64,000 nt of DNA from Gordius sp. MW1 (Eukaryota > Nematomorpha > Gordioida > Gordea > Gordiidae), in assembly GCA_964036665.1 (NCBI GenBank), contig OZ038526.1, positions 6,448,001 through 6,512,000 of the forward strand, in the 5' to 3' direction. The first letter of the stretch is position 1; each line of letters opens with the position of its first letter. This document shows, piece after piece, positions 14,371-62,034 of the stretch. The position numbers and the translations under genes were made by a program. A model generated the notes under the pieces. The model did not search any database. It worked only from the letters and a program-made list of their open reading frames with translations, and was not told the origin of the DNA.

Positions 14371-15929
14371 AGGAAAATGCATAATATTTGATTGGCTTCA
14401 TAATATAAATTTTGAACAATATGTATGCAATTTAAGGGGGGAAAGGAGGAATCAAAGTGGGATAGTCTGGTTGGTATGCTTTTGACAAATTAAATTTATG
14501 CTGTGATTTCGTTTGGAATTTGAATTGTAATATAACCTTTGCCGCAAATTTATTCTGACTTTTTTACAAGAGAGTGAATAAAATTAAAATTTCAAAACTT
14601 TCATTTAATAATAGAATTTCCGATATTTATGCTAGTGCACGTAAATTATTATCGAGGAAAATAGATGGTATAAACTCAACATGTGGCATCATAGTTTACA
14701 GATTTCCCATTCAATCAACAATTGCGATCCTAAATTGCGGAATTACAAAACATGAATTTATAGTTTAAATTTAAACAGCTTTTGTTTCGAGTATATTTAC
14801 TTAAAATTTTACTTATTTTAGCGCGTACCAAGTTTAAATTAGGGGACAAAAATTTAATGCTGAATGGTCTTTGCTTATTAAATGAGATTTATAACATTTT
14901 AAGCTTAATACATAACTTGGAAAATCATATCAGGTCTAAATCTAATCAAATGTCAAATACATGATATTTTATAATTCAAGTAGTTTTTGAATACTTTAAT
15001 CGTTATATTAAGTCTCTTTAAACTCGGACATCATTATATTGCTTACAACGTAATACTTAACTAGACCAGCTTATATGAATCATGGTCAAAGTGACAGAAT
15101 GATGAAAAAGTAGCAGAAAAATATTTTTTTTAGATAATCAAGATATTAAAATTAAATCTCAAATGGGGAGGGAATTTCTGATGTATTCCTAACCCTAACC
15201 CTAACCAGAACCCTAACAATCTTGATGAATCCTGACGATATCTGACCAATTTGGCTGCTATTTTTCTGCTACTTTGACCGGTTGCCGCTCATATATAAAG
15301 ATGAATAATGGAGGCTTAAATTACGCAACCTATCGCAAAGCATCTAATATACAAAAAACTTTTTTAAACTTTTCATGTTATATCCAAGCCAAACCAGGGA
15401 ATTTGAGATATTTTAAATATAAATATTCTTAAAAACTGAAGTTTATATCACTTTGTCCCACCCCCGCCACTGATTAAAGTTTAATTAGATTGACAAGGAG
15501 GACAATAGTAGGTAGTTATATCTTACAAGATTGTAAATTACGTTAAGGCTAAAATGGAATTACATCCTGTTAATTCTATCGCTTTTATAATTAAATTTTT
15601 GCATCATTCTCAAATATTTTTAAATCAAATTAAGGTCAAGACGAACCCCAATAATATTGGTTAAATGAAAATGCTTGAACTAAAATTAATTAGGTAGTCT
15701 TTGGATAACAAAGAAGGTATATTAGAACATGCAGTGCAGGCTTGTTACTAACAGATCAGATGGCAAGGAAAACTTTTACCAAACGTAGTTGAAAACTCTA
15801 TATAATTTAGTTCAGACAAAAAACAAATGCAGCACAAAGATTAGGGATTATTTAACTTTTTTCAATAATATAAAAACAACAGCGGGACAAATTAAATGTG
15901 TTTTGTACTCTATATTCAAATTGTATCGC
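14371..15929. other. Spacer of the fold-back element
   Basis: AT-rich DNA with no inverted match across the element. Frames of about 60 codons at 14574-14768 and 14782-14964 have AT-biased composition and no motif, so I do not call them genes. It contains the MITE at 15084-15279. Confidence 0.5.
15084..15279. mobile_element. MITE with TTAGGG-like centre
   Basis: The left end GGTCAAAGTGACAGAA and an inner AAAAAGTAGCAGAAAAATA are inverted at the right end as TATTTTTCTGCTACTTTGACC. The interior at 15188-15217 reads as CCTAACCCTAACCCTAACC plus one more unit, the complement of TTAGGG telomere repeat. It differs in sequence from the MITE at 3852 but has the same plan. Confidence 0.6.
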
Positions 15930-53929: not shown

Positions 53930-54777
53930 TAGCCAACGGAATGTTAAGAGGTAATTTAAGATATTGAACATAGAAATCCTTTTGTGTTTAAAACATTAGA
54001 ATTATAAATTGAGGGCATTCGTAATTAAGTTCAATAGCTTTAAAATAGCTTATTTATTCATAAGGGGCCAAGGGGCCGAAGATTTTTCCCTTGGGGGGGG
54101 GGGCCATGGGGCCAAGTTTTTGCTCTTGGGAGGGGGGCGGCCCCCACGCTATCCCCTAGCTACGCCACTGCTTGGAAAATTTGTGGGTTTGGACTGTTTA
54201 GAGTTGTCTGATTATGTCTTTAAACCGATTTTTAGGCATACCATTGAAAATTATTTTGTTGAAGAATAGGACTTCTTATGTATTCAAAACATTTAGACAT
54301 TATTGAGAGACTTATACCAGTTAAAAAAATTGTAATATAATTTTCAAATTTGTTGATCGTTAATTTTAAATTATGTGTTTTTTTGCTTATAAATTAAAGG
54401 TCTGAAGCAAAATAATTAAATTTTCTCAATATTTAAATGGGAGTAACGACAGTCAAAATTCTATTTTTAATTTTTAACTTTTTATAAGGCCAGATTGCAA
54501 CAAACCTGAAAATGGGACTAAGTTTTAAGAAGTCCACCATCTACGAGTAAAATCATTGGAAAATTCTATAAAAATTTAAAAAAATCAGAATGAATTAAAG
54601 ATATGTAGACTTCTATCTAAAGCCGCTTCAAAATCATCAATGAAATTAATTTTAGCCGTATTTGGCATATTAGGAGATCATGAATATTATTTATCCGCCC
54701 CATTTCCTATCCAAAAATCAGAGAAAATGAGAATATCGTTTTATCAAGACTTTTTATAGCTTAAAAACGCAACTCAC
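53930..54777. other. AT-rich DNA with a MITE fragment
   Basis: At 54060-54172 GGGGCCAAGGGGCCGAAG and G runs lead to CCCCTAGCTACGCCACTG, a right end of the CAGTGGC-TAGCTAGG repeat type. Otherwise AT-rich. The DIP2 C-terminal exon expected downstream of 54778 was not found. Confidence 0.5.
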
Positions 54778-55367
54778 CGCGAGTGTTAATTGAAATTACG
54801 CCAGGGTCAACAATCACTACAATGCCCGTTATTAAATGATGATGTTCTAAAACGGCATTGGTGATGGAAGGAATTAAATCGAGTGCTTTAAGTTCATGTC
54901 CCTGCTGTTCTATGATCGCTACCAGTAAGGTATCAGTCCAAGTGAAAACAGTACTATTTTAAAGAAAAATCATTTAAAATCTTAAATTCAAATAATAGCT
55001 TAATTTGTGAATGGCTAAAATCGATTGTTTATATTTCATATAAATGTTATACCGTTCAATCGCCTTTTTGTGACTACGCAATATAGTGTGCTTTACATGG
55101 GCGTAGCCAGCTTTGGAATTAGAGGGGGGCAATAAGATTTAGGGATGATTAGGGAGGGGCAAAATGAACATTTTATAAAATTTTAGCCATAATATTAATG
55201 AATTTGAACAATTTTTTGGATTTAGAGGGGGGCAGCCGCCCCTTCCTGCCCCCCCCCCTTGGCTACGCCCATGGTGCTTTATATCAATGGGATGAAAACG
55301 CATGCCTCGAAGTATCATTGTTTCTTTCAGAGAGCCCACGACATGACAAACAGGGCAGCATTATATT
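54778..55367 (-). pseudogene. DIP2: DIP2-like C-terminal exons, one split by a MITE
   Basis: Two minus-strand exons. The first (55367-55053 including the insertion) encodes SLKETMILRGMRFHPIDIK, then after the MITE ILRSHKKAIER. The second (54953-54778) encodes TVFTWTDTLLVAIIEQQGHE, NAVLEHHHLI and VVIVDPGVISINTRG. These match the end of disco-interacting protein 2, whose C-terminal AMP-binding-like domain contains RGMRYHPIDIE, AVFTWTNLLVVVVEL and VVIVDPGVIPINSRGE. The junction is phase 2 and in frame (CG|T), with a good acceptor and a consensus donor CGCG|GTGAGT. DIP2 proteins act in lipid and neuronal regulation. A MITE (55096-55273) breaks the first exon, and a 5-bp duplication near 55340 shifts the frame before it. 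This copy is probably a broken gene or gene fragment; upstream exons were not found. Confidence 0.8.
55088..55281. mobile_element. MITE inserted in a DIP2 coding exon
   Basis: The element spans 55096-55273, starting CATGGGCGTAGCCAGC and ending CTTGGCTACGCCCATG. GTGCTTTA flanks both sides exactly (55088-55095 and 55274-55281). Removing the element and one octamer restores a continuous DIP2 reading frame across the site. Element plus duplication is 186 bp, a multiple of three, but a stop codon inside it (55139-55141, minus strand) would end translation. Confidence 0.92.
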
Positions 55368-55897
55368 CTTATACAATTTTAAAACATAGATTAGTTGATA
55401 ATTATAGAATATCTGAAATGTTCCTTTGGGACTTTATACTATTATTAAAATTCAAAGCACAACTTAATTTTTAGGGAGCCTCTTAGTAAATGGTACATGA
55501 AATATAATACCCAATCATTGAAAAAATCTTATCCGAAGGAAAATAGTGTATTGACTTCATTATAATAGATATTTTGTTATAAAACCGAGATTTTTTGAAA
55601 AAGGAGTAAAATTAGTTAGTTAAAATCTCATAAATATGAGGTTTTAAATTATTAATGGTCTAATGGGATAAGCAAGATTCGTTGAATATTACAATAATCT
55701 AAGTAATTTGCTATAACTCTAACATATATTAATGAGTTGAAGCTGGTTAGATCGGGGTAGCACATTTGTTTGCATATGATTTAGCCATTAGAATATATTT
55801 ACTAATTAAAGGCTTATAAGAATTAAAATTTATCAATGGCAATGGTTGTTTAAGGTAAAAATGATATCTTATATATAAAAATGAAACTATGTGTGTG
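55368..55897. other. AT-rich DNA, expected site of upstream DIP2 exons
   Basis: No further DIP2 motif could be read here. A GT microsatellite adjoins the next MITE. Confidence 0.4.
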
Positions 55898-56121
55898 TGT
55901 GTGTACATGGGCGTACGCAGGTTTTGGAATAGGGGGGGGGGGCAGATTAAAATTTTTCTGCGACCAAAAAAAAATCCAAAAATTTTCCTGAGAGCAAAAA
56001 AAAGGTCTCGAGTAAAAATTAGGGGGGGGGGGGGCAGCCCAGCCCCCTGTCCCCCCTGGCTAATTAGAGGGGGACAGCCGAGCCCCCTGCCCCCCCCCCT
56101 GCGTACGCCTATGTGTGTGTA
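55898..56121. mobile_element. CATGGGCGTACGC-type MITE in a GT repeat
   Basis: The element spans 55906-56113, starting CATGGGCGTACGCAGG and ending CCTGCGTACGCCTATG, with several G and C runs. TGTGTGTA lies on both sides, but the target is a GT repeat, so this duplication is weak evidence. Its inside matches the truncated copy at 9680-9954. Confidence 0.8.
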
Positions 56122-56660
56122 TATGTGTATGCCGCCACCAATTTTGGAAAACTACCAGACCAGTTTGCCTCAAAATTTCACAGTTTATTCCTGCTACTCC
56201 GGAGCATGTTTTAATATTTGTTTGAGCCAAATCGGTCCAGTAGTTTTTGATCGAGTTTGTTTTATACCTTTTGACGTTTAATAAAATTTTAATCAAACGC
56301 AACCTCATGACGTACAGCGTATCTATCGTTTGTTTGTTGTGTGATAAATGTAGGCATGTGCTGCGGAAAATGCGAAACTTTTTACCATTTAACACATTAA
56401 ATCAAAGTCATTTTTTTGCTTATTTTTCACGTCAATTATTTTATTATTATAGGACGGTCGTGTCCCCCCCCCCTACGTGCCTAAATAAATTAAAAATCTA
56501 ATTTTGTCATTTTTTGCGCGTTAAATAAGGAGAAAATGCTTTTAACAAAGTGCCAATAAATGTTGATATATCAGTTCTTCGGACATTATTAAGTTAAGAA
56601 TTAAAAGTTTTATTCAGAAACAAATCATTATAATTATGATATTGTTTCTTAATTACAAAA
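56122..56660. other. AT-rich intergenic DNA
   Basis: Open frames on both strands around 56060-56500 conflict and show no motif. Confidence 0.4.
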
Positions 56661-56664
56661 AAAA

Positions 56665-56760
56665 AAAATGGAAGGGCCAGGGGGCCAAAGATTTTTTACT
56701 GGGGGGGGGCATGGGGCCAGGTTTTCTCTCTTGGGTGGGCCAGTGCCTTAGACCCTCTTT
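56665..56760. repeat. GGGGCCA-rich repeat fragment
   Basis: AGGGCCAGGGGGCCAAAGATTT, a G run, then GGGGCCAGGTTTT resembles the inside of the repeat at 54060-54172. Ends are not preserved. Confidence 0.5.
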
Positions 56761-56934
56761 AACTATTTGTTTAAGATTTTTTGCATAATAAACACTTCCC
56801 AATTATATTTGATATATTCTTAATCTATTGAAATTTATCTATAAGATGATATATATTCTGCTAATATACCCGGGTAAATGGCAAAACAACGTTTGCCGGG
56901 TTCATTTAGTATATTATAAAAGCGTAAAAAGGTA

Positions 56935-58222
56935 CTCGGGCCTTCGGCCCTCGTGGGAAGGGGAAGAGGGGAATGGGAATAGGGAAAGGGAAGGGGGCAA
57001 GGGAAGGGGGAACTCTTCTATACTCCGTATAAACGTAGCATATTTGCTAAGCAATTTATGGGCGAGAAAGGTGGGAAGGGGCGAGAATGCCTATAGGGGG
57101 GTATTAAATGCAAAATAATTAGTTAATTAGTTATAGGCCCTTGTAGGAAAGGGCATAGGGTAATTATCAATGTTAACCAATTTAAAAACGAAAAAAAAAA
57201 ATCGATTTATTTGGCCAATGGTCATTTTTTCCATTGGTCAGTAGCCTGCGGACGATCAAAAAGTCATATTATCAATGGTATTAACAAGAACAAAATATTA
57301 ATTTAATTTAAAAAAAATAAAAATTTTGCCCTCTCCGGGATTCGAACCCACATCAGTAGAGGCATAGGCCTTTTGTAGGGGCACAGGGACCCATATCAGT
57401 AGAGGCAAAGGCCCTTGTAGGGGAGGGCATAGGGTAATTATCAATGTTAACCAATTCAAAACGGAAAAAAAAAGTTCGATTTATTTGGACAATGGTCATT
57501 TTTTTCATTGGTCAGTAGCCAGCGGACGGCCAAAAAGTCATATCATCAATGTTATTAACAAGAACAATATATTAATTTAATTTAAAAAAAAATAAAAATT
57601 TTGCCCTCTCCGGGATTCGAACCCACATCAATAAAGGCATTTGTTCAAACCCCACCGATATTATTAAAAAAATACACAATAATGGAATGGATTGAATATA
57701 CAATATATAATATTAAGCTTGAGCCTTTAGCTAAAACAGGAGAGATCAATGATAAGAAGTCGAAAGGATTTCTAAAAGAAGTTTATTTCATAATTATAAA
57801 TAAAAATATAGAGTATAACACGGTTCATGCATATAATAATATCAAAAATAAACATATAAATTTTTTTTCAATGAGCTGGTTTTACGGATCACCACACATT
57901 CCATTGCCTTGACGGATTTTGTGCATACCATGCTGGTTTTAAAATAGTAGAAGTTTTTATGTTATTTATATAGATAATGAAATAATACCATAAATTGCAT
58001 AGCAATTAAAAGTTGTGTTTTATGTTTAGAAAATCAATATATTTCATCGGTCAGTAGCCAGCGGACGGTCAAAAAGTCATATCATCAATAGTATTAACAA
58101 GAACAAAATATTAATTTAATTTAAAAAAAAAATCATTAAAAAACAGTGAAGGGTAATGGACAACGGACAACGGACAATTAAAAATCAAAAACGAGCCCAT
58201 AAATTGCATAGCAATTAATACC
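56935..58222 (+). mobile_element. Partial copy of the fold-back element
   Basis: Starts with the fold-back terminus CTCGGGCCTTCGGCCCTCGT and follows the left arm: TTTATGGGCGAGAAAGGTGG, GGCCAATGGTCATTTTTT units at about 57212 and 57490, and B-box-like GGGATTCGAACCC at about 57338 and 57613. The pair ACCATGCTGG and CAGTAGCCAGCGGACGG follows, and the copy ends near CCCATAAATTGCATAGCAAT at 58198-58217. The inverted partner arm is absent. A frame at 57601-57912 lies in its interior and has no motif. Confidence 0.8.
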
Positions 58223-58312
58223 AACTACAAACATTTTTTAGTGGATGGATCTTAAATTTAGATTTTATAAAGCGTTAAGTCAAATATAAGCTGGATTTTC
58301 AGGCGAGTTAGG

Positions 58313-58462
58313 TTAATTGGAAAAATTGCTTAGCATGACTTTATTGAGATTGTTTAAAGTGTTGCTTAAAATATGATCATATTTGTAACATAAAACGCTA
58401 TAATGTTGCAGGAGGCTATATAGCTTGAGATGTTCCCGCTCATTTTTTAGAACCTTCCAGAT
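58313..58462 (-). other. Coding-like frame beside a MITE, unrecognised
   Basis: Minus-strand codons from the MITE boundary to TAA at 58313 read IWKVLKNEREHLKLYSLLQ and on, with balanced composition. It may be an exon cut off by the MITE at 58463-58625. No family recognised. Confidence 0.25.
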
Positions 58463-58625
58463 CATGGGCATAGCCAGGGGGGGAGCAGGCCCCCTCCCTA
58501 AATAAAAACATGTTTTCAATACAAAAATCTTTAAAAATTAATGTTTTGCCCCCCCCCCGCCCCCTAATTTAACTTAAAACCTGTTCGCCCCCCCCCCCCT
58601 AATTCAAATCCTGGCTACGCCCATG
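58463..58625. mobile_element. CATGGGC-type MITE
   Basis: Begins CATGGGCATAGCCAGG and ends CCTGGCTACGCCCATG, with C runs inside. The flanking octamers TTCCAGAT and TTAACGGG do not match. Confidence 0.85.
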
Positions 58626-61462: not shown

Positions 61463-62034
61463 ATGCCAAATTATTTGTTGTATATTTTGTCGTTTGTTTG
61501 CATTTCTATTATAACCTGCCAGGAATCTCCGTCTCTTTATTATAATGACGAAACAGTTGTTGATATTACATTGGATAATTATAAACATGTTCTTTACAAC
61601 CAAAACAATGTTTGGATTGTAAAATTTTATCTTCATTGGTGTGGCCATTGCAGAACCTATTCCAAACTTTGGAAGGAATTCGGGAAAGATGTACAAAGTA
61701 TTGTAGATTTATTACTATGATTATATAAATCATAGGCTGGAATAAATTTTTAAAAGTTGGTGCTGTAAATTGTGGAGATCGCAAAAATGATTATTTATGC
61801 AACAAATACAATCTTATTAAGTATCCCCAATTATTGGTAACCTGTTTTTGATTTTGCTAAATTATTTTGTTAGTTATTTCCACCTTATTCAGAAAGTACA
61901 ACAAGATTTACTGAGATCCCATTAATGTATGATCTGCAAGAACTCAAGGATTATACACTCAAACAACTAGCCTTTATATCATCATTGCCAGTTTCTAGAG
62001 ACTGGCCTAATCTTTTGCCTTTTAGAGGTGACAG
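61463..62034 (+). CDS. QSOX: Quiescin sulfhydryl oxidase, first three exons
   Basis: Exons 61463-61697, 61736-61836 and 61874-62034 join in frame (phases 1, 0) and the third ends in phase 2. The ATG starts a signal peptide (PNYLLYILSFVCISII). Next comes a thioredoxin domain with the active site WCGHC in KFYLHWCGHCRTYSKLWKEF. Then SWNKFLKVGAVNCGDRKND matches the W-x(n)-NCxDxxN block of QSOX, followed by KYPQLL and LFPPYSES. QSOX enzymes make disulfide bonds in secretory proteins, passing electrons from thioredoxin Cys pairs to an FAD-bound Erv domain and oxygen. The Erv part and later exons are not seen and would lie downstream or beyond the window. The first intron is only 38 bp. A thioredoxin-like protein of another family, such as ERdj5, is less likely. 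Confidence 0.8.

Follow-up and report, generated by a model that had tools for sequence, protein, structure and literature searches.

The window, by which we mean the whole stretch of 64,000 nucleotides that was analysed, is located on contig C8 of a genome of 212 Mb in 12 contigs. Near its 3' end lies a truncated piece of a DIP2 gene, and one exon of this piece is split by a MITE, a non-autonomous DNA transposon (Table 1). A thioredoxin-domain ORF on the plus strand (61463-61714; Pfam 8.9e-9), which perhaps belongs to a sulfhydryl oxidase or disulfide isomerase gene, starts approximately 3 kb upstream of the DIP2 fragment. The MITE is short and non-coding, its inverted ends (CATGGGCGTAGCCA/TGGCTACGCCCATG) are complementary at 14 of 14 positions, and both flanking copies of GTGCTTTA were recovered, confirming the 178-bp element with an exact 8-bp duplication that had been reported at these coordinates in a preliminary description of the locus. 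Only one structure in the window combines perfectly inverted 14-bp ends with an exact 8-bp duplication at a total length of 100-400 bp, and 50 dinucleotide shuffles yielded none; with 11-bp ends the count rises to two (0/50 shuffles), and a chance origin of the structure was therefore rejected. The second of these occurrences, at 1609-1794, is a member of the same family with an exact CAGTTACC duplication and approximately 84% identity to the family consensus.

Table 1. Features of the DIP2-derived region and its insertions (window coordinates).
Feature	Position	Strand	Remarks
Whole DIP2 fragment	54773..58467	-	BLASTN match, in pieces, to C3:17157478-17158868; broken up by the MITE and by ~2.4 kb of other sequence at 55880-58252
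DIP2-derived last exon, truncated	54773..54953	-	homology to C3 ends 24 codons short of the normal stop
DIP2-derived exon split by the MITE (penultimate exon of the C3 gene)	55053..55367	-	splice dinucleotides kept
Target-site duplication, left copy	55088..55095	.	GTGCTTTA, exact
178-bp MITE, non-autonomous DNA transposon	55096..55273	.	14-bp perfect terminal inverted repeats
Target-site duplication, right copy	55274..55281	.	GTGCTTTA, exact
5-bp insertion relative to C3	55340..55344	-	shifts the frame on the 5' side (gene sense) of the MITE
Second MITE-like element	58463..58625	.	upstream edge of the DIP2 homology; no matching 8-bp duplication

When the element and one octamer are removed, the minus-strand frame of the split exon is continuous (...MRFHPIDIKHTILRSHKKAIE...; in the fuller reading, HPIDIKHTILRSHKKAIE), reproducing what had been proposed from the sequence. 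The phase-2 junction with the next exon was likewise recovered, the donor (exon end 55053) and the following acceptor (exon start 54953) being kept around a 99-bp intron, and the acceptor of the split exon itself is also kept. With the MITE in place, the reading frame runs into the element and ends at a stop after 44 codons, in agreement with the approximately 45 codons estimated earlier. The joined peptide of 95 aa matches Pfam PF23024 (AMP-dom_DIP2-like) with an E value of 1.4e-15, and thus the flanking peptides do carry the DIP2 similarity whose absence, according to the preliminary description, would have spoken against its reading; no match to the joined peptide was obtained in the PDB at E 0.001.

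Searches at the protein level and with PF23024 detected sequence of the DIP2 C-terminus at two loci only, the window and C3:17158238-17158916. The genome search for a second DIP2, which had been suggested as a check, thus revealed a full-looking gene on another contig of chromosome size, C3. The corresponding exon in this gene is uninterrupted and reads YHDALFVVGSLEETMILRGMRFHPIDIEHTILRSHQKAIE; beyond the intron the sequence continues with CAVFTWTNN...INSRGEKQRMHLRDSFLNDELDPIYVAYNM and ends in a stop. The C-terminal end of the gene is GEKQRMHLRDSFLNDELDPIYVAYNM-stop, and its last two exons, when joined, match PF23024 with an E value of 2.3e-22. Open stretches upstream begin at approximately 17134500. 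From the plus-strand ORFs, 28 pieces were picked by eye, with inexact exon ends, possibly wrong frames and some exon stretches omitted; strung together, these pieces match AMP-binding (5.6e-30), the DIP2-like AMP domain (1.4e-23) and Mug62 (1.5e-9), and the match to DMAP_binding falls below its cut-off. Because the exon boundaries are approximate, we refer to the C3 gene as full-looking and not as proven intact. The domain description in PMC9342972 gives DIP2 a DMAP1-binding domain and two AMP-binding-like domains, and a passage of the same paper places the duplication of DIP2 into several paralogues in vertebrates. Two further features were observed on C3: an extra stretch of approximately 240 bp in a DIP2 intron (C3:17158372-17158610), mostly similar to window 15085-15286 at 79%, and ORFs resembling those of LTR retroelements, which lie between two of the DIP2 exon pieces (C3:17150508-17156550).

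The window copy corresponds to approximately 1.4 kb of the 3' part of the C3 gene, with one exon complete and the last one incomplete. When the 28 ORF pieces and the last 25 residues of the C3 protein were compared with the window using tblastn, convincing matches were limited to the two 3' exons, and none of the 26 pieces searched for upstream exons gave one; five other pieces gave single window hits with E values of 0.15 to 0.96, which were taken as chance. A functional DIP2 would be expected to contain the DMAP1-binding domain, two AMP-binding-like domains and an intact C-terminus, and the copy in the window consists of part of PF23024 only. A 605-bp probe of exon and intron, in a search that omits very common words, matched the genome only at the C8 locus itself and on C3 (74%), which rules out an origin of the fragment as a member of a repeat family. 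The introns are shared by the C8 copy and C3, showing that the piece was copied as DNA, and a processed (retro) copy is ruled out for the same reason. With a full-looking parent elsewhere, retained introns, a truncation and a frameshift, the C8 copy resembles duplicated (non-processed) pseudogene fragments in general and differs from them in nothing notable, other than that it also bears several transposon insertions. One of these is an inverted-end element at 55906-56113 (CATGGGCGTACGCAGG) with an exact TGTGTGTA duplication, located in a GT repeat and forming part of the interruption of approximately 2.4 kb. The element at the upstream edge of the homology is of the same kind as the MITE in the exon, and its flanks differ (TTCCAGAT vs TTAACGGG), perhaps marking a rearrangement.

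The MITE belongs to a uniform and abundant family. At least 41 genome matches were listed, 40 of them, including the element itself, at 92-100% identity and one at 74%; among these best 40 of 3187 candidates, which were the ones scored, the copies are 175-185 bp in length. An exact 8-bp duplication is present in 22 of the 40 copies, the one in the DIP2-derived exon included, and six more have a single mismatch, giving 28 with at most one, as against 12 with two or more. The 8-bp duplications, which are the target-site length of hAT transposons, are consistent with hAT (or P) transposition. P elements likewise produce 8-bp duplications. Dimerisation domains of hAT transposases are abundant in the genome (at least 150 matches, 150 having been scored of 3413 candidates), and P-type transposase domains are also present (76 matches). 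Among 30 of the 150 hAT loci and 30 of the 76 P-type loci, inspected with 1.5-kb flanks, no transposase was bracketed by MITE-like ends; sites resembling the MITE ends were detected at 3/30 hAT and 2/30 P-type loci, but in no case did they flank the transposase match on both sides. In its short length, non-coding sequence, inverted ends and many near-identical copies the element resembles known hAT-type MITEs with 8-bp duplications, and it differs from them in that no transposase could be matched to the family in the 60 loci examined and that P-type transposases are present too. The element was probably mobilised in trans by a transposase of the hAT type.

The order of duplication and insertion can be read from the parental locus. 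At the paralogous site on C3, CCCATTGATATAGAGCATACTATATTGCG, there is one octamer-length stretch and no element, and therefore the MITE arrived after the duplication. The divergence values are in keeping with this order. Relative to the consensus of the 39 other listed copies, the MITE has substitutions at 7 of 178 sites (3.9%) and a 1-base gap, a rough measure of age, since the consensus was made from copies picked for similarity to this element; the upstream intron of C8 and C3 shows 101 mismatches in 667 ungapped aligned columns, an estimated 8.0% per branch, which is higher than the value for the MITE (P 0.023, equal rates assumed). The frameshift and the truncation may each have arisen before or after the MITE. 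In the exons, 26 of 276 compared bases differ, and the 92 codons compared contain 13 amino-acid changes and 9 silent ones (pS 0.19, pN 0.064, dN/dS 0.30); one more replacement, outside the 13, lies in the codon that the intron divides (TGT in C3, CGT in C8). If both copies had been constrained (assumed dN/dS 0.05), 1.8-2.3 nonsynonymous changes would be expected, far fewer than the 13 observed. If the C8 copy had been free from the start, the expectation would be 16.8 replacements using the introns (P 0.21) or 21.6 using the exon dS (P 0.033), and the observed number (approximately 13; 13.5 by path counting) is similar to or somewhat below these values.

These results very probably reflect a non-functional 3' fragment of DIP2 that was copied from C3 to C8 with its introns and decayed there, in part through the insertion of a MITE. 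We propose the following course of events. First, a DNA copy of a 3' piece of the C3 gene, approximately 1.4 kb long and with its introns, would have reached C8. Second, without upstream exons and the last 24 codons, this piece would have been non-functional on arrival or soon after. Third, it would have decayed through substitutions, the 5-bp frameshift and transposon insertions, among them that of the MITE into the former exon, with its 8-bp target duplication and probably through a hAT-type transposase acting in trans. The preliminary description had left three options for the insertion, of which the second, that a copy already dead was hit, agrees best with the truncation, the frameshift and the full-looking gene on C3. 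Its broader characterization as a young MITE in a conserved DIP2 coding exon holds in part: the MITE does lie in a DIP2-derived exon and is younger than its host copy, but the exon is conserved by descent only, as it belongs to a truncated and frameshifted duplicate.

Against a copy that was dead from the start weigh the dN/dS of 0.30, the somewhat small number of nonsynonymous changes and the retained splice dinucleotides. Since nonsynonymous changes are fewer than expected, a phase under constraint within a larger copy could be accommodated, and the fragment would then be what is left of a second DIP2, larger or complete, that worked for some time, a history compatible with its dead state now. 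In addition to the slight nonsynonymous deficit (P 0.033 or 0.21, depending on the expectation), a rearrangement is suggested by the MITE at the upstream edge, which has no duplication. However, a 357-aa probe made from three upstream ORF pieces of the C3 gene matched the genome three times, each time on C3, the 26 upstream pieces found no convincing counterpart in the window, and the thioredoxin-domain ORF begins approximately 3 kb upstream of the fragment. We therefore consider this history unlikely. Because a MITE without a target duplication sits right at the upstream edge of the fragment, it can also be asked whether transposon activity moved the fragment to C8, with related elements carrying or rearranging the gene piece and striking it again later; we regard such carriage as quite improbable.

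The first option of the preliminary description, that the MITE recently knocked out a working DIP2 copy and may be polymorphic, would account for the intact duplication, the frame that is continuous once the element is removed, the retained splice dinucleotides and the dN/dS of 0.30, but the C8 copy lacks its last 24 codons, carries an independent frameshift and has no upstream DIP2 exon in the window among the 26 pieces searched, and the three upstream pieces searched genome-wide are on C3 only; this option is thus unsupported and very improbable. A knock-out of the genome's DIP2 as such is ruled out, as C8 carries only a fragment and C3 has a full-looking gene. That the MITE is spliced out, or that the region is part of a chimeric or non-coding transcript on C8, would agree with the retained splice dinucleotides of the host intron but is hardly credible, as the upstream frameshift and the truncation persist even without the MITE.

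The MITE in a truncated, frameshifted DIP2 duplicate is real and fairly young, and represents ordinary genome decay, with little importance beyond annotation. For annotation, the locus is a warning that gene predictors may report a false second DIP2 on C8. The filled site on C8 and the empty site on C3 also form a clean pair illustrating MITE insertion, in which the 8-bp duplication is exact and the insertion can be dated against its host copy. Regarding the contig itself, C8 is 37.4 Mb in length, contigs C1-C7 range from 28.2 down to 21.1 Mb, and C8 may be a sex chromosome listed last.
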